From: Cyanobacteria bacterium SIG27
GTDB lineage: Bacteria; Cyanobacteriota; Vampirovibrionia; Gastranaerophilales; Gastranaerophilaceae
Assembly (NCBI GenBank): GCA_015152565.1
Contig: SUTT01000014.1
Location: 1-44,761 of the forward strand
Direction: 5' to 3'
DNA length: 44,761 nt
Program-made: the position numbers and the translations under genes
Part shown: positions 614-20,977 of the stretch, piece after piece
How positions within the stretch are numbered: the stretch's first letter is position 1
Layout: each line of letters opens with the position of its first letter
Notes under the pieces: model-generated
What the model was told of the DNA's origin: nothing
The model's database searches: none
What the model saw: the letters and a program-made list of their open reading frames with translations, nothing else

Positions 614-1717
614 TTATTTGCTATTTTTATCATCAACAACTTTAGCGTCAATCACTTTAGCGTCTATTATATTGTTATCAGAGTTTTTTTCTTCTTTTTT
701 CTTATCTTCAAGTTCAAGTTGCTTGTTAATTACAATTGTTTGGAAAATTTGGAAAACATTACTTGTAACAAGATATAACAATGCGCCTGCAGGAATTGGA
801 ATAAATACGAATGTAACACCAATCATAATAGGCATAATTTTACCCATTGATTTTTGGATTGCCGCTTGTTGAGGGTCTAGATTTTGTGTTTTATTTGAAG
901 CCATCATGATTTTTTGTGATAGCCAAATTGTCACTATAAACAGTGCAACAAGAAGAATTACATCGTAGTGAAACTCGTTTTCAACTTGAACTGTTGGAAC
1001 TTGTGCGATTAAAATATCGCCCATTCTTTTAAATTCAATATTTTCTGTTTCTTTTGTCATGATATTCATAACAGAAACTTCAGCTTTTGAAACTTTATTT
1101 AACTGAGCAAAGTTGAGATTTAGGCTATCTAGTGCCATTTTAAGCTCAATTGGTTTATTTTGTTCAATTTCACCTTGAATTTCTATTGCTTTTTGTGGTT
1201 TTTGGATTTTAACATTATCAAGTTTTTCGTTATCTAAATAAACAACTGCTGATTTTCCAGCTTGGAATTGAGCATGGTTTGATACTGAGAATTGACCATC
1301 TAATGACACACCAGCGTTTGATTTAATTGTTGAATCTAGTCTTTTAATGAATAAAAAGTTAGAATCACCTGCCATTTGAATGAACTGTGGGCTCATTAAA
1401 GCGCTATAAAGCATAATGAAAATTGGAATTTGAATTAACATCGGAAGACAGCCGGCAGTTGGGTTAAAGTTGTTTTCCTTGTAAAATTCCATCATTTTTT
1501 GCTGCATTAATTGAGGGTTATTTTTATATTTTTCTTGTATTGTTTTCATTTTAGGAGTTAAATTTTGCATATTTTTCATTGAACGTTGTTGTGAAACGTT
1601 AACGTGCCATAAGCAAATACGCATTAAAATAGTAAATACGATAATTGCCATACCGTATGAACCAACAAAACTTTTTAAAACATCCAAAAATTGTATAGTT
1701 AATGCTACAAAATCCAT
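614..1717 (-). CDS. yidC: YidC/Oxa1-type membrane protein insertase
   Basis: Inserts and folds inner-membrane proteins with or without SecYEG. The N-terminal helix (about residues 17-37) is followed by the charged cytoplasmic hairpin with KMKTIQEKYKNNPQLMQQKM. Next comes the helix with GCLPMLIQIPIFIMLYSALM (about 88-108), then C-terminal helices with IPIPAGALLYLVTSNVFQIF, all typical of YidC. There is no Gram-negative P1 domain. Instead about 120 residues (roughly 125-245) are inserted in the extracytoplasmic loop after the second helix. I recall an insert at the same place in cyanobacterial YidC. The start has GAGGAG 6 bases upstream. The lysine/aspartate-rich tail (about 340-367) is probably disordered and could contact ribosomes. 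Confidence 0.95.
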   Translation of the reverse strand: MDFVALTIQFLDVLKSFVGSYGMAIIVFTILMRICLWHVNVSQQRSMKNMQNLTPKMKTIQEKYKNNPQLMQQKMMEFYKENNFNPTAGCLPMLIQIPIFIMLYSALMSPQFIQMAGDSNFLFIKRLDSTIKSNAGVSLDGQFSVSNHAQFQAGKSAVVYLDNEKLDNVKIQKPQKAIEIQGEIEQNKPIELKMALDSLNLNFAQLNKVSKAEVSVMNIMTKETENIEFKRMGDILIAQVPTVQVENEFHYDVILLVALFIVTIWLSQKIMMASNKTQNLDPQQAAIQKSMGKIMPIMIGVTFVFIPIPAGALLYLVTSNVFQIFQTIVINKQLELEDKKKEEKNSDNNIIDAKVIDAKVVDDKNSK

Positions 1718-1757
1718 TATATTCTCCTCAAAATTAAAGTCTTTAAGTAATATGTCT

Positions 1758-1781
1758 ATTTTACTATGAACATGGTAAAAT
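1758..1781. promoter_or_regulatory. 24-bp palindrome between divergent yidC and mnmE, possible bidirectional promoter
   Basis: The left arm ATTTTACTATGA and right arm ACATGGTAAAAT pair at 11 of 12 positions (one T-G wobble; the two central A bases do not pair). Each arm supplies a TAAAAT hexamer on one strand. On the plus strand it reads TGGTAAAAT, an extended -10, ending 6 bases before the mnmE ATG. Toward yidC the mirrored TAAAAT leaves a leader of about 34 bases with a good ribosome site. Neither direction has a strong -35. A repressor operator is an alternative reading. Confidence 0.45.
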
Positions 1782-1787
1782 TGTTAT

Positions 1788-3110
1788 ATGGAAAATAATT
1801 TTGATACAATTTGTGCAATAATTACCCCGCTATCTGTTGGAGCTGTAGGCATTATCAGACTTTCAGGTTGTAAAGCTTTTGAAATAACACAGTCTATTTT
1901 TGATAAAAAAATTACACCTAAAATGATTAATTATGGTCATATTATCGATAATGGCGCTATTTTAGATGAAGTTATTGTTCTGCCTTTTGTTTCACCTCAT
2001 AGTTATACAGGTGAAGATGTTGTAGAAATTCAAACCCATGGAAACCCTGTTATAGTAAATTCTATATTAGAGCTTATTTTATCCAAAGGTGCAAGGTTAG
2101 CTAATAGGGGTGAATTTACTAAAAGAGCTTTTTTAAACCACCGCATTGACTTATCTCAAGCGGAAGCAGTATTAGATATAATTCAATCCAAAAGCTCTAA
2201 ATCTGCTCAAAATGCTCTATCTAATCTTGGCGGATACTTAAAAAATAAAGTAAATGAAATTAAAAATAATTTAATTGAAGTTTATTCACGTGTTATTGCT
2301 TCAGTTGATTTTCCAGAAGATGTTGCTGAAGTAGATGAAAACTACATCGAAACGATATGTAATGATAATATTCAAACAATAGAAGAAATATTATCTAATT
2401 CTAAAAGCCACGATTTTATAAGAGATGGATTAAACGCATGTTTGATAGGAAAGCCTAATGTTGGCAAAAGTTCCTTATTTAATTCTCTTTTAAATTACAA
2501 CAGAGCAATTGTAACCCATATCGAAGGTACAACTAGAGATACAATTAAAGAAGCAATAAACTTAAATGGTTATTTAATTAATTTTATTGATACTGCTGGA
2601 ATTAGAGATAAAAACCAAGCAGATTTGGTTGAACAAATTGGTATTGATAATTCGCTTGAATCCATTGATAATTCTGAAATTGTATTATTTTTGTTTGAAA
2701 AATCAATTGATGAAATTGATAATGAATTGATTGAAAGAGCAAAAGATAAAGAGGTTTTATTTATTAAAACAAAATGTGATATAAATACAGACAATATCGA
2801 AAATTGCATTGAAATCAGCTCTAAAACAGGTTTTGGCATTAATATATTAAAAGAAAAAGTGACTGAAATTATTAAAAATTTAATTCCAAATGATAGTAAC
2901 TATACTACAAATAAACGCCAGCAAACCTGTCTTTTAAGAGCTAAAGAAGCCTTAGAAAATGTTTTAGAAACAATTAAATTAAATCCAGATGCAGATTTAT
3001 ATGCAATGGACTTAAAACATGCAATTTTAGCGCTTGATGAGATAACGGGCGAAGTTTTAACTGATACAATATTAGATAATATATTTGATAATTTTTGTAT
3101 TGGTAAATAG
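1788..3110 (+). CDS. mnmE: tRNA uridine-5-carboxymethylaminomethyl modification GTPase MnmE
   Basis: With MnmG it modifies the wobble uridine (U34) of several tRNAs. The N-terminal formyl-THF-binding region contains GAVGIIRLSG and YTGEDVVEIQTHGN. The G domain follows, with GKPNVGKSS (G1, about residues 222-230), GTTRDT (G2), DTAGI (G3) and TKCD (G4, a variant of NKxD). The protein ends in CIGK, the C-x-G-K signature of MnmE. Its 440 residues are normal for the family. No Shine-Dalgarno sequence precedes the ATG; with an extended -10 only 6 bases upstream the message may be leaderless (inference). Its stop codon directly abuts the stop of the convergent gene, with no terminator between. Confidence 0.96.
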   Translation: MENNFDTICAIITPLSVGAVGIIRLSGCKAFEITQSIFDKKITPKMINYGHIIDNGAILDEVIVLPFVSPHSYTGEDVVEIQTHGNPVIVNSILELILSKGARLANRGEFTKRAFLNHRIDLSQAEAVLDIIQSKSSKSAQNALSNLGGYLKNKVNEIKNNLIEVYSRVIASVDFPEDVAEVDENYIETICNDNIQTIEEILSNSKSHDFIRDGLNACLIGKPNVGKSSLFNSLLNYNRAIVTHIEGTTRDTIKEAINLNGYLINFIDTAGIRDKNQADLVEQIGIDNSLESIDNSEIVLFLFEKSIDEIDNELIERAKDKEVLFIKTKCDINTDNIENCIEISSKTGFGINILKEKVTEIIKNLIPNDSNYTTNKRQQTCLLRAKEALENVLETIKLNPDADLYAMDLKHAILALDEITGEVLTDTILDNIFDNFCIGK

Positions 3111-3848
3111 TTATTTATAAAGTGTTACTACTTTGTATCTTACATAATCGCCGTAAGGTTTTTGGGTATAAATTACTGGGTTAATTTTACCTTGTGAGTC
3201 AAATATTTCATCTTCAGGCATATCTTTTGAAATGCATCCTAAGCCAGAAATTGCTGGTTGAAAAACACTTCCCAACGTAACACCGTTTAATGATGCGCTA
3301 GCTAGAGGATTATTGGTTGAGCCTATGCACAGATACTTTTTATTTCTTATATCATTAAAAATTTTAATAATATCTTTTTGTAGTGGCATTAATTCATCGT
3401 ATTCTGATGAAGTATAGTATAGTTGCACATAATCTTCGCCAGTCGTTTCGTCTTTATAAAATGAATTAAACATTACATATCGGCGTTGTAGTGGGTCTAA
3501 GCCACTAACCATAAAAAGATCATGGTCTGGATCAACATCATGTTTTTTGCATAATTCAAGATAAGTTGGTTTTAATGATTTTTTACAAGCTCCTTGAATA
3601 CTTGGATGCATAACTACAGCCGTCGCATAGCCACTTTTGGGGTCGATATAACCTGTGCTTTTGGATACAAGACTGATATTTGCATTTTTTTCTTTTTGAG
3701 TTTGCAGATATTCTTGTTTATAACGTTTCTTTCTTGCTTTAAAATCTGCAGGAGTTTCATCAAAATCCTCAACAAAAGCGTCTAGATCTTGAATTTGAAA
3801 ACTTCCTTTGAAATTTGTTGTTAATTGCGGCCTAAAAGTAACTTGCAT
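3111..3848 (-). CDS. Lineage-specific protein of unknown function, paralogue of the next gene upstream
   Basis: I do not recognise a known domain in these 245 residues. The leader MQVTFRPQLTTNFKG resembles the MQVSF...ITFKA start of the upstream neighbour. The core (about 145-205) aligns with that neighbour: FYKDETTGEDYVQLYYTSSE matches FYTDDNGEYASQMFRLESPN, then QKDIIKIF matches QRAAYKIF, and NNPLA matches NNPFR. There is no signal peptide or membrane helix. Residues 30-60 are rich in Lys, Arg and Gln. The ribosome site is AAGGTAG. The 12-bp gap to the upstream paralogue indicates one transcript. The stop abuts that of mnmE. Confidence 0.85.
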   Translation of the reverse strand: MQVTFRPQLTTNFKGSFQIQDLDAFVEDFDETPADFKARKKRYKQEYLQTQKEKNANISLVSKSTGYIDPKSGYATAVVMHPSIQGACKKSLKPTYLELCKKHDVDPDHDLFMVSGLDPLQRRYVMFNSFYKDETTGEDYVQLYYTSSEYDELMPLQKDIIKIFNDIRNKKYLCIGSTNNPLASASLNGVTLGSVFQPAISGLGCISKDMPEDEIFDSQGKINPVIYTQKPYGDYVRYKVVTLYK

Positions 3849-15885: not shown

Positions 15886-15932
15886 TCAAACACTTAATAT
15901 ACATTTAATTCTTTTTGATGTATTTTAGTTTT

Positions 15933-16892
15933 ATGAAATTTAAGCAAATTCCATCAGATTATTTTATTACAATTTTAGATAGATTAACTCGCTTTGAACC
16001 CGCTTGTGTTCGCTATAAGCGAGTTTTTGATGATATAATCAACAAATTCTGTCTTGATGAAAAGCTGAAAAACCTATCTCTAGAGGATGAAATTAAAATT
16101 GTTGAAGAAATTTTTAACTCTTCAATTAAGCAAAATAATGACTTTTATATTAATGATATTTTGATGGGGTTAGAGGAAAAATATTTTAATTTTAATCAAT
16201 CATCTTATCAATACCTATCAGCTCGATTGAATATTTCTTCAATGGTTAGCGAAGTTAAAAAAAATGAAAATTTAGCAAAAAATGTTCAATGGTTGATTGA
16301 AATTTCAAAAAGCAAAACCAATATTCTAGAATTAAGAAAAAAAGAGAATCTTCTATATCCTATTGAAAAAATAATTCTCTGCGAAGGGCAAACTGAGCAC
16401 ACCTTGCTTGAAACAATATTTAAAAAGCTAAATTACGATATTAATCAAAACGGCGTCTTGATACTTCCTGCAGGGGGCAAAAATCAAGTGGCAAGAAAAT
16501 ATTACTCCATGCTTGAATATGTAAAACTTCCGTTTTTTATATTGCTAGATAAAGATGCAATGCCAATAAAAGACCTGATAGAACCAAAATTACGCCCAGT
16601 TGATACGATATATCTAATTAAAAATGGTGAAATTGAAGATATTATTCCCCAAAATATTCTTCAAAAAACAATCAATATAGTTCATAAAAATGAATTAAAT
16701 TGCATGTTTGATGATTTTGACCCTGATAAATCAATGGTTTATAATCTTGAAAATATCTATAAAAAATATGGTTTTGGGGAGTTTAAAAAAGCAAAATTTG
16801 CGCATGAATTAAAAGAATATATCGAATTTAACACAACTTTAGGTGATTTTAAGAATAGTGAATTAGTTGAAATAAAGAACGCTTTAAAATAA
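15933..16892 (+). CDS. Stand-alone OLD-like TOPRIM domain protein
   Basis: The C-terminal half looks like the TOPRIM domain of OLD-family nucleases. Numbering from ATG 15933: EKIILCEGQTEHTLL holds the catalytic-type Glu (about 151), GVLILPAGGKNQV the glycine turn, and FFILLDKDAMPI the DxD pair (about 206 and 208). TOPRIM domains use these for Mg-dependent phosphodiester chemistry. The N-terminal 140 residues are helical with no recognised domain; there is no ATPase domain, unlike full OLD proteins. TTG 15915 and ATG 15918 are alternative starts and none has a ribosome site. The SDR-like gene follows after 9 bp. A defence or DNA-repair role is possible but not shown. Confidence 0.75.
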   Translation: MKFKQIPSDYFITILDRLTRFEPACVRYKRVFDDIINKFCLDEKLKNLSLEDEIKIVEEIFNSSIKQNNDFYINDILMGLEEKYFNFNQSSYQYLSARLNISSMVSEVKKNENLAKNVQWLIEISKSKTNILELRKKENLLYPIEKIILCEGQTEHTLLETIFKKLNYDINQNGVLILPAGGKNQVARKYYSMLEYVKLPFFILLDKDAMPIKDLIEPKLRPVDTIYLIKNGEIEDIIPQNILQKTINIVHKNELNCMFDDFDPDKSMVYNLENIYKKYGFGEFKKAKFAHELKEYIEFNTTLGDFKNSELVEIKNALK

Positions 16893-17774: not shown

Positions 17775-17938
17775 AATAATTTCTTTATCTTCACCCTCAA
17801 AATAATAAGATAGAAAATTGCTTTGCTTTGCTTAAAATTCTTTTTTTAATTGTTTATTTTTGTAAATATGAAAAAAATTTACTAGCAAATAATTTTTTTT
17901 ACAAGCATTATATAAAAAAGTAAAACGAGGAAAAATTA

Positions 17939-20900
17939 ATGAAGCTATCACCAGTCAACGCACAAAACCAAGCATTTCAAGCTATAAAAAAATCTAAAAA
18001 ACAAGTTAATAATAAACAATCAAAACAACAAAATACACAAAAAAATCCGATTGATTTAAACAAAGTTGCTCAAAATTTGCCAGCATTTAATATTAAAATT
18101 AAGTCAAAAGATGATTATACCGACTTAAAATTAATGAAAAGAAATTATACACCAGAAGCTAAGGAAATTTATGATTACGCAGTTTCAATTGCCAAAAGGG
18201 CAAATTCCCCAGAATTAGAAACTTGGCACACATATATGGCTTCTTTAATTATGGCGAATAATTTTATTAAAGAAGCAGACAAAAACCCTATTCTTTTAGA
18301 TCAAGAGCAAAGATTTAGACTACCATTTGCTATCCAAAATTTAATTTATATGGGTTGTACTTGCTTGTATGTTGACGAGAAAAGAAAACAAGTTATTGAA
18401 ATTCTAAATAAACACATTAAGTCTATGGAGGAAAATTTTGTTCAACGTGATTTACGTAATAATCCTCGTCCACAATTAACAACGCCAACCATGTCTAAAA
18501 AATCAATTTGCGATACTTCAGATTTTTGGAACAAAATAATTCAACAAACCGATATGCCAGACTTTTTTGATAGCTACTTCTTACTTGCATCACATATTTC
18601 GCAAGACAAACAACTAGCTCAAGAATATGCTGATTTAATTTTTGATTTACAAGAAGCAGTTATGAAAGAAGAAGCTAAGGCTGATGAAAAATATCACATT
18701 GAATTTTACGACAATAAAGCTGATACAATGTGGAAAAATATAGCTTTAGGAAATAACGTTTTAATTATTAACGACAATGAAAACCTTTCAGGATATTCAT
18801 ATTTAGCAAGCAGCTTTGCAAATCTAGTTAAAAAACCAGGACAAAAATACGGAGCTATTGATCCTAAAAAAACCCACGTTATCAAATTGAGTGATAAAGC
18901 AACAAAAGAGTTTGTATATACGCTTGGCAAAAAAACTAAATATGACCAAAATAAAAAAGGCGAAACAACAGTCATAATGTTTGATATGGATGCACTTTTG
19001 CAAAATTCAGAAATGCAAATACCTCTTGAATTTGTAAGATTATTGTCAGGAAGTGAAAAATATAATCCAGACAAATCTAATGTATATTTTGCTCTTAGTG
19101 TTACTCCGGAATCTTATCATGTTAATACAGAAACTCCTGGACCAATGAGAGATTTATTAACAGGCTTTGCGCAACAATCATTGCCAATTTTAACAGCAAC
19201 AGACGCTAAAAACTATCTGGCAAATGAAAGCGGCGTTAAATTTATTTCTTCTAAAATTAAAAAAGAAATTCAGCCTCAAGCAGTCTTAAGAGCAATTGAA
19301 TTAACAGGTTCAAAACAAGGAAATTATCCTGATAAGGCAATTGAGTTATTAAATACAGTTTCAAAATATTTTGTTGATGAGAAAGAAATTACCCCAAAAC
19401 ACATTGATACATATCTAAAAGAAACAGAAAACCTAAGCGAAGTAGCGAATATTGAAGAAAGAAGCATTGTTTTTGACACAGGTAAAACCTTGGCCGATAT
19501 CAAAGGTATGCCAATGGTTTTGGCGGAAGCTCAAAGCTATGTTAAACAAATTCAAAATGGTTCAATTGGAACTCGTGGCGTAATTATTATGCATAACCAC
19601 GGTGGCGCAAGCGGGGGCGGCAGACGCCACACTATTGAGGCAATTGCTGGTGAAACTCAGGTTCCAATTTTAAAATTGAATGCAAGAGATTTTGCAATTA
19701 AAGATATCGATGCGCTATCACAAGAAGCAGGTCTATCTGAAATTAAAATTAAAAAGATTATTCAAAATGCTAAAGCTCAAGCAGAAGCAAACCCATTAAA
19801 CACAGCAATTATATATATTGACAACTTTGATAACTTTGGCTCTGACCCATTATATGGTATTTCATCAATTTATGAGCAAAAAGCCTTTTCGCAATTGTTA
19901 TCTGAAATGGAAGCAATAAGAAAAGAAGGGAAATTAAACATTATCATTGTTGGTTCAATGAATATTCCAGAAACTCTTGATGAAAACATCTTAAAACCAT
20001 ATAAATTCTTAAATCAAATTGTAATTTATCAACCACGAGATTCTGAGCAAAGAAGAGAAATTTTAGATTATTATATTGAAAAAGACGGACGTCAAATTAA
20101 AGACGATAGTCTTGGCGAAAAAGATAAAATCTTAAACACAGTAGCTGAAAGAACAAAATATTTCTCAGTTGTTGATTTAATTGATCTGCTTGATAGAGCA
20201 AATATTATTTCTAAAGAACAAGACAAAGACGCAATTGATACAACTGATTTTACCGAAGCTTATCTTCAAATGACTACTGGTCGAGCTGATACATCTGAAA
20301 TTTCAGAATCAAGAAAGAAAATTGTAACATCTCATGAAGCAGGCCATGCGCTAACACTTCAATTAATGTATGAAATGGCTAAAAAATCGGATATTCCTTG
20401 GCATTTACCATCCCAAGTTGATTTCATCACGCTTGATCCTAGGGGTGATTTTGGCGGCGCAATGTTCTATAAAGATTCTGATAATGAAGAATGGTCTTTT
20501 GAAAGATTATTTGCCGACATTATTTGCACTTACGGTGGTCATAGTGCAGAAAACATTATCTACAATATGCAAGGCTCTTGGGGTATTACAGGCGATATGG
20601 AAAGCGCAGTTACAGCAGCAGAACAAATGGTAACATTAATGGGTATGGGTGTTAAAACAGGCGTTAGAAACACTATCGGCAACCGCTTTGCAACAGAAAA
20701 ACAAAAAGAAGCTATCCAAGAAGACGTTTCAAGAATATTGACAACAGCAAAAGATATTTCCGATAGCATAATTAAAGCTTATGAACCATTTATTTTGGAA
20801 TTTACTGAAAAATATTACCAAAAAGTTGCAACTGGTGAATGTTTGATACCATCAGAAGAATTTCAATTTATGTTAAATAACTGGAGATTAAAACAAACGC

Positions 20901-20977
20901 CAGAAAAATTAAAAGAATTGGAAAAACTTGAATTTAACATAAGTCAAAAAATCAAAAATTGTAAAAAAGGCGAATAG
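17939..20977 (+). CDS. Clp-like/FtsH-like protein with two degenerate AAA+ modules and an intact M41 zinc-peptidase domain
   Basis: 1012 residues without a membrane helix. Residues about 68-165 (YTPEAKEIYDYAVSIAKRAN) resemble a Clp N-domain. Residues 265-500 resemble the ClpB/ClpC first AAA+ module: NNVLIINDN at the P-loop, VIMFDMDALL at Walker B and YPDKAIELLNTVSKYF near its end, but neither Walker residue set is kept. Residues 507-765 match FtsH AAA+. P-loop glycines remain (G556, G559, G561) but Lys-Thr became R562-R563. Walker B is IDNFDNFG (D628, Glu to N629), and RPGRFDR became KPYKFLN. The M41 peptidase is complete: H799-E-A-G-H803 and D886 in GITGDMESA. The leader MKLSPVNAQNQAFQAIKKSK resembles other lineage-specific starts. 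Ribosome site GAGG. It may be an ATP-independent protease or a partner subunit of true FtsH. Confidence 0.85.
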   Translation: MKLSPVNAQNQAFQAIKKSKKQVNNKQSKQQNTQKNPIDLNKVAQNLPAFNIKIKSKDDYTDLKLMKRNYTPEAKEIYDYAVSIAKRANSPELETWHTYMASLIMANNFIKEADKNPILLDQEQRFRLPFAIQNLIYMGCTCLYVDEKRKQVIEILNKHIKSMEENFVQRDLRNNPRPQLTTPTMSKKSICDTSDFWNKIIQQTDMPDFFDSYFLLASHISQDKQLAQEYADLIFDLQEAVMKEEAKADEKYHIEFYDNKADTMWKNIALGNNVLIINDNENLSGYSYLASSFANLVKKPGQKYGAIDPKKTHVIKLSDKATKEFVYTLGKKTKYDQNKKGETTVIMFDMDALLQNSEMQIPLEFVRLLSGSEKYNPDKSNVYFALSVTPESYHVNTETPGPMRDLLTGFAQQSLPILTATDAKNYLANESGVKFISSKIKKEIQPQAVLRAIELTGSKQGNYPDKAIELLNTVSKYFVDEKEITPKHIDTYLKETENLSEVANIEERSIVFDTGKTLADIKGMPMVLAEAQSYVKQIQNGSIGTRGVIIMHNHGGASGGGRRHTIEAIAGETQVPILKLNARDFAIKDIDALSQEAGLSEIKIKKIIQNAKAQAEANPLNTAIIYIDNFDNFGSDPLYGISSIYEQKAFSQLLSEMEAIRKEGKLNIIIVGSMNIPETLDENILKPYKFLNQIVIYQPRDSEQRREILDYYIEKDGRQIKDDSLGEKDKILNTVAERTKYFSVVDLIDLLDRANIISKEQDKDAIDTTDFTEAYLQMTTGRADTSEISESRKKIVTSHEAGHALTLQLMYEMAKKSDIPWHLPSQVDFITLDPRGDFGGAMFYKDSDNEEWSFERLFADIICTYGGHSAENIIYNMQGSWGITGDMESAVTAAEQMVTLMGMGVKTGVRNTIGNRFATEKQKEAIQEDVSRILTTAKDISDSIIKAYEPFILEFTEKYYQKVATGECLIPSEEFQFMLNNWRLKQTPEKLKELEKLEFNISQKIKNCKKGE

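Follow-up and report, generated by a model that had tools for sequence, protein, structure and literature searches.

FtsH is the textbook example of a protease whose cutting depends on the consumption of ATP. Relatives of such enzymes in which only one of the two activities persists have been described: in MtaLonC the ATPase activity is absent, nucleotides are bound, and unfolded proteins are degraded without ATP (PMC3391209), and the chloroplast FtsHi proteins kept the ATPase and lost the HExxH (PMC8197885). Our search of the literature, limited to open-access sources, found no FtsH of the kind reported here, no Clp_N-M41 fusion and no motor-dead M41 protease.

Here we analyzed a gene on a 44,761-nt contig (SUTT01000014.1, hereafter the window) of a bacterium of the order Gastranaerophilales. 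Its product consists, in chain order, of a disordered leader, a Clp N-domain, a Clp-type AAA+ module, an FtsH-type AAA+ module and an M41 zinc peptidase. Like the LonC proteins (MtaLonC and TTC1975), it carries AAA modules without ATPase residues, judged here by sequence only, on an intact protease; unlike them, with their Lon-type protease and one AAA module, it has an M41 zinc site, two modules and a separate origin. Like FtsHi, it is an FtsH-family paralogue missing one of the two activities, but the loss is the reverse, the HExxH being kept and the ATPase residues lost throughout its clade (hereafter the dead clade). The clade therefore adds, from an animal-gut lineage without cultured members, an M41 counterpart of LonC that is also the mirror image of FtsHi, and would let one ask what an AAA+ ring does beyond supplying energy, be it assembly, gating or sensing.

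Results and discussion

The gene and its surroundings

The gene encodes 1012 amino acids (positions 17,939 to 20,977 of the window, forward strand, stop codon included), and its orthologues in the Gastranaerophilales are of about the same length (950–1050 aa). A GAGG resembling a ribosome-binding site can be read at 17,927–17,930 (forward strand), with the ATG 8 nt further on; promoter and terminator scans gave nothing better than shuffled sequence. On the 5' side the gene is flanked by an OLD-TOPRIM-like ORF and an epimerase, and on the 3' side by nadC-like and nadB-like genes on the opposite strand. These neighbours vary by genus and none is conserved, which rules out an operon partner; the protease gene is stand-alone. 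As a separate observation, the ORF at 15,915–16,892 (forward strand) has an OLD-like TOPRIM domain (2.8e-13) and no ATPase domain that was recognised.

A membrane-grade segment is absent from the window protein and from 64 of 65 clade members, whereas real FtsHs have clear ones; the maximum 19-residue hydropathy is 1.07 in the window protein versus 2.1–3.2 in the FtsHs. The AlphaFold model of the whole chain reached a pLDDT of 82.5, and since its pTM was only 0.50, it does not fix the domain packing or ring formation.

The N-terminal half is of the Clp/Hsp100 type

Two domains make up the N-terminal half, a Clp N-domain-like helical domain (residues 60–240; 18,116–18,658, forward strand) and a Clp/Hsp100 D1-type AAA+ module (residues 245–500; 18,671–19,438, forward strand). 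Searched as a single sequence against Pfam and NCBIfam, this half gave no Clp match. A 61-sequence profile of residues 60–511, in contrast, matched the ClpC D1 in the PDB at 1.8e-14, and the other PDB matches listed for this profile were all Clp/Hsp100 proteins. Smaller family profiles and hhalign (95% for D1) agreed with this assignment, the N-domain matching Clp N domains, and the Pfam models AAA_lid_9 and, weakly, Clp_N were recognised in 12 and 6 of the 61 family members, respectively.

The predicted structure points the same way. Modeled alone, the N-terminal half had a pLDDT of 90.5 and a pTM of 0.86, and its best 50 structural matches, in a VIA-align ranking that covers Foldseek's own matches only, were exclusively Clp/Hsp104 chains with Z scores up to 16.9. 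The D1 module scored Z 16–17 against the D1 of Hsp104 and ClpC, and several alignments with ClpC, ClpA or Hsp104 started in the N-domain and spanned both domains. A Pfam RNA_helicase match at residues 319–378, below the Pfam cut-off and inside the Clp D1 fold, was rejected as a chance match.

Residues 60–500 thus share with ClpC, ClpA, ClpB and Hsp104 the N-domain and the D1 fold with its D1 lid. They differ in that the window D1 has no functional Walker motifs, its P-loop and catalytic Walker B being gone; a Gly-rich P-loop was seen in this module in no family member, including relatives in which the second AAA+ module (AAA2) is motor-intact. The chain also departs from Clp/Hsp100 further on, where the second module is by sequence of the FtsH type, not a Clp D2, and has a peptidase of its own behind it.

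Other Clp-related proteins were noticed along the way. A 454-aa protein (L042, positions 1261–2625, reverse strand, G000:C44) has several Clp_N repeats and no recognised AAA module, and a 1017-aa Clp-like protein from another family of the class (L067, 1300–4353, reverse strand) has NSGEGKN for the D1 P-loop and keeps GPTGVGKT in D2.

The FtsH-type module has lost its motor residues

The second AAA+ module spans residues 513–785 (19,475–20,293, forward strand). Pfam AAA matched residues 556–694 (1.9e-12), and NCBIfam FtsH_fam (TIGR01241) matched residues 547–962 with an E-value of 1e-39 and 136.8 bits, which lies below the equivalog cut-off of 600. FtsH was the first match in the PDB sequence search, and residues 514–980 of the full model superposed on apo-FtsH (3kds) with a Z score of 31.2 over 414 residues at 3.3 Å. 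The C-terminal 500 residues therefore resemble FtsH in having an AAA module and then M41, with the same fold and zinc ligands. Unlike FtsH, the window protein has no N-terminal anchor, Walker Lys or Glu, arginine fingers or FVG motif, and it has a Clp-type N-terminal half.

Residue counts were made in 65 non-redundant clade members, and the motor differs from that of FtsH as follows. First, Arg562-Arg563 (19,622–19,627, forward strand) stands where Walker A has Lys-Thr, Arg562 being present in all 64 members that have a residue there. Second, the catalytic Glu of Walker B is replaced by Asn629 (19,823–19,825, forward strand), which is Asn in 63/65 and His in 2/65 members; a wider set of 79 rows gave the same pattern, with two Lys at this position. 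Third, the arginine fingers of the SRH, which we take to correspond to E. coli R312 and R315, are Lys686 and Lys689 in the window protein and mostly Lys across the clade. At last, the FVG pore motif is gone, the segment reading FAIKDID in the window protein and DFA.KD.D in the clade. Recurrence of identical substitutions in 65 non-redundant members is beyond chance. As far as can be read from the residues present, both AAA+ modules are without catalytic residues, and those for hydrolyzing ATP or pulling a chain through the pore are missing from the protein.

The segment of the former P-loop is about four residues longer than that of FtsH, and model confidence is lowest just ahead of it. By within-clade conservation, the segments that once formed the P-loop (GxGRx[HY]) and Walker B (I[ED]NF[DE]) fall in the top 5% and the top 8%, respectively, of AAA2 segments. 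Because few parts of the module are better conserved than these, the old nucleotide pocket appears to have been remodelled rather than abandoned.

The zinc peptidase site is intact

The M41 zinc peptidase domain occupies residues 788–1000 (20,300–20,938, forward strand; Pfam Peptidase_M41 at 788–962, 9e-17). The zinc ligands and the catalytic Glu lie in HEAGH at residues 799–803 (20,333–20,347, forward strand), with H799, E800 and H803 invariant in 65/65 members, and the third zinc ligand, Asp886 (20,594–20,596, forward strand), is equally invariant (65/65). Across the aligned members, the zinc site is complete throughout the clade.

A first-pass annotation, made from the DNA letters alone, had described a soluble chain of Clp N-domain, Clp D1, FtsH AAA and M41. 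Pfam, the 60–511 profile, the predicted folds and the hydropathy bear this layout out, and when the halves were searched separately the N-terminal one led to Clp and the C-terminal one to FtsH/M41, in agreement with the monomer prediction; the Clp-type match that it expected for residues 60–500 emerged with the family profile and not with the single sequence. All the residues it had singled out (Arg562-Arg563, Asn629, Lys at the finger positions 686/689, HEAGH and Asp886) are present, and the contrast it drew between dead motors and a live zinc site extends to the 65 members.

Distribution, relatives and selection

The named relatives found for the family are nearly all Candidatus Gastranaerophilales bins, and the genomic data are metagenome-assembled genomes (MAGs). 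A scan of genome contigs gave no match with the single protein as query and 66 loci with an alignment query. Order-wide, 93 of 286 genomes matched at 1e-60, five of them only via other, distant relatives, leaving the dead clade in 88, where the dead state was read in 79 tree rows, not in each of the 88 genomes. A phylum-wide genome sample contained no clade member outside the order, and inside this sample the clade occurred only in the window's own family. In the collections searched, the dead clade is restricted to gut Melainabacteria (Gastranaerophilales). The gene is accessory, since its presence is patchy within genera.

Soluble M41 relatives with an intact motor (GxxGxGKT and DE) exist (L023, L024, L026, L027, L032, and a 750-aa group comprising L150–L154 and L163). 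Those assigned to the same order (L023, L024, L032, L150–L154 and L163) share the AAA-M41 core with the window protein, and the longer ones, for instance L023, L024 and L032, also have a D1-like module. They differ from it in keeping GxxGxGKT, DE and the YVG pore loop, and a Clp N-domain was not seen in those that were aligned. In three further soluble M41 relatives (L025, L028 and L033), GSGKT/S is kept, Walker B reads DD or ND and canonical fingers are absent; their motors look half dead, intermediate between the intact and the fully dead ones. The soluble paralogue of about 750 aa, with an intact motor and its own N-terminal 250 residues, was found in 10 of the 286 genomes. It accompanies the dead gene in 9 of the 88 clade genomes, from two genera, too few for a soluble partner with an intact motor to be the norm. 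In the window genome, the one other M41 relative found is an ordinary membrane FtsH (L002).

In the tree, all sequences with the dead state fall on the same side of a branch that has support 100; long branches meet at this point, so that the exact placement of the motor-intact relatives is unsure. The motor-intact homologues are separate deep lineages, not functional copies of the dead-clade gene.

All modules of the dead-clade gene are under purifying selection. In Nei-Gojobori estimates from 17 independent pairs, of which 14 to 16 were usable per module and some had dS near saturation, the median dN/dS was 0.129 for the N-domain, 0.088 for D1, 0.044 for the dead AAA2 and 0.09 for M41. The most constrained module is the dead FtsH-type AAA2; the motor fold is thus more tightly constrained than the peptidase, though the working parts are gone from both modules.

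A proposed mechanism and its alternatives

We favor the view, at a probability of roughly 0.58, that the gene encodes a soluble M41 zinc metalloprotease that would act independently of energy on a static AAA scaffold. Because the protein has no membrane segment, has lost the motor residues and has a complete zinc site, ATP-independent cleavage would be the simplest mechanism, and the protease probably works without ATP. The ancestor would have been a soluble AAA+ protease in which a Clp N-domain and a Clp D1 were joined to an FtsH AAA-M41 core. The ATP site of the D1 module would have been the first loss; the death of D1 is probably older because its motifs are absent even where the second motor is intact. 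In the dead clade, the losses in the FtsH-type module (Walker Lys, catalytic Glu, arginine fingers and FVG pore motif) would have followed. Retained as a fixed scaffold, probably ring-shaped, the dead module may hold the peptidase in position and gate it, and its old nucleotide pocket would have been reshaped for structure or for a ligand that is not hydrolyzed. The Clp N-like domain would pick substrates or adaptors, and unfolded, partly unfolded or adaptor-delivered substrates might get to the zinc site with no threading powered by ATP, rather as in LonC. Even so, ATP could be bound, unhydrolyzed, in the conserved pocket and so affect activity.

Less probably, the remodelled pocket may instead make the protein a switch or sensor, in which a nucleotide, alarmone or other metabolite is bound unhydrolyzed and opens or closes the protease. 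The high conservation of GxGRx[HY] and I[ED]NF[DE] though catalysis is gone, together with the lowest dN/dS falling on the module that holds the pocket, would fit this possibility, for which MtaLonC offers a precedent of nucleotide binding without hydrolysis (PMC3391209). Such conservation may, however, be structural alone, for instance if Arg562 pairs inside an empty pocket, and the extra length of the P-loop segment, about four residues over that of FtsH, with the model least sure just before it, also speaks against a ligand. If a sensor is nevertheless what evolved, an ancestral motor would have become a ligand-gated valve, with the level of a metabolite controlling proteolysis that ATP no longer powers.

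We regard it as unlikely that the protein is a non-hydrolyzing subunit of mixed hexamers, in which translocation would come from a motor-active partner, either the membrane FtsH or a soluble paralogue with an intact motor. The FtsH family does include hetero-hexamers, such as FtsH12/FtsHi and Yta10/Yta12 (PMC8197885, PMC9020784), and candidate partners exist, namely the normal FtsH (L002) in the window genome and, in the nine genomes mentioned above, the soluble 750-aa paralogue. The latter is, however, missing from 79 of the 88 clade genomes, and FtsH is membrane-anchored, whereas the dead-motor protein has no anchor and is only about 30% identical to it. Moreover, a neighbour in such a ring would make use of a pore motif and arginine fingers, both of which are gone from the dead subunit. 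The first-pass annotation had left the choice between ATP-independent proteolysis and hexamers shared with a real FtsH. The former is now the better supported of the two; the latter is weakened by the membrane FtsH being the only motor-intact M41 relative found in the window genome, by the lost fingers and pore, and by the 9/88 co-occurrence.

Since proteolysis by canonical FtsH requires ATP, protein degradation does not necessarily follow from an intact HExxH. It is conceivable, if quite improbable, that the protein is no protein-degrading enzyme at all, serving as a binding or chaperone-like scaffold or as a highly specific processing peptidase that keeps M41 for one substrate. Folded proteins would be hard for an M41 peptidase without a motor, and the patchy presence within the genus suits a specialised accessory role. 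A pure scaffold, though, would not need the zinc and catalytic residues that are invariant in 65/65 members, and a specific processing peptidase, which would not depend on ATP either, overlaps with the energy-independent protease that we favor.

A reading of the gene as a soluble AAA+ protease paralogue in decay, to which motor-intact relatives and the many near-complete relatives without the gene might point, has next to no probability and is contradicted by identical replacements recurring clade-wide, by a low median dN/dS in every module (0.04–0.13) and by frames that are open across the clade, with one break (L128) in 66 database loci; homologues with intact Walker motifs, which the first-pass annotation had thought would betray such decay, do exist but form separate lineages, and selection acts on the dead clade in its own right.

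The N-terminal leader

The chain begins with a disordered leader (residues 1–59; 17,939–18,115, forward strand) that starts MKLSPVN and has a pLDDT below 50 for residues 1–56. Most orthologues have a cognate leader, MKI..I ... [IV]SF.G, whose second part was not seen in the window's copy. Counting MKI..I or similar, a disordered stretch and [IV][ST]F.G or a close variant, the leader was found in 62 of 85 members versus 73 of 579 internal segments. This leader may be a lineage-specific sorting signal, which could bear on where the protease is located.

In the 0.79 Mb sampled from the window genome, the leader occurs on 22 of 626 proteins versus 6.3 expected from shuffles (maximum 15). A similar leader also stands on unrelated proteins of the order, for example on two that, from their sequences, look by eye adenylate-kinase-like and DHH-like, respectively; loci with the shared leader include positions 3114–3848 of the window (reverse strand), L076, L077, L130, L175 and others.
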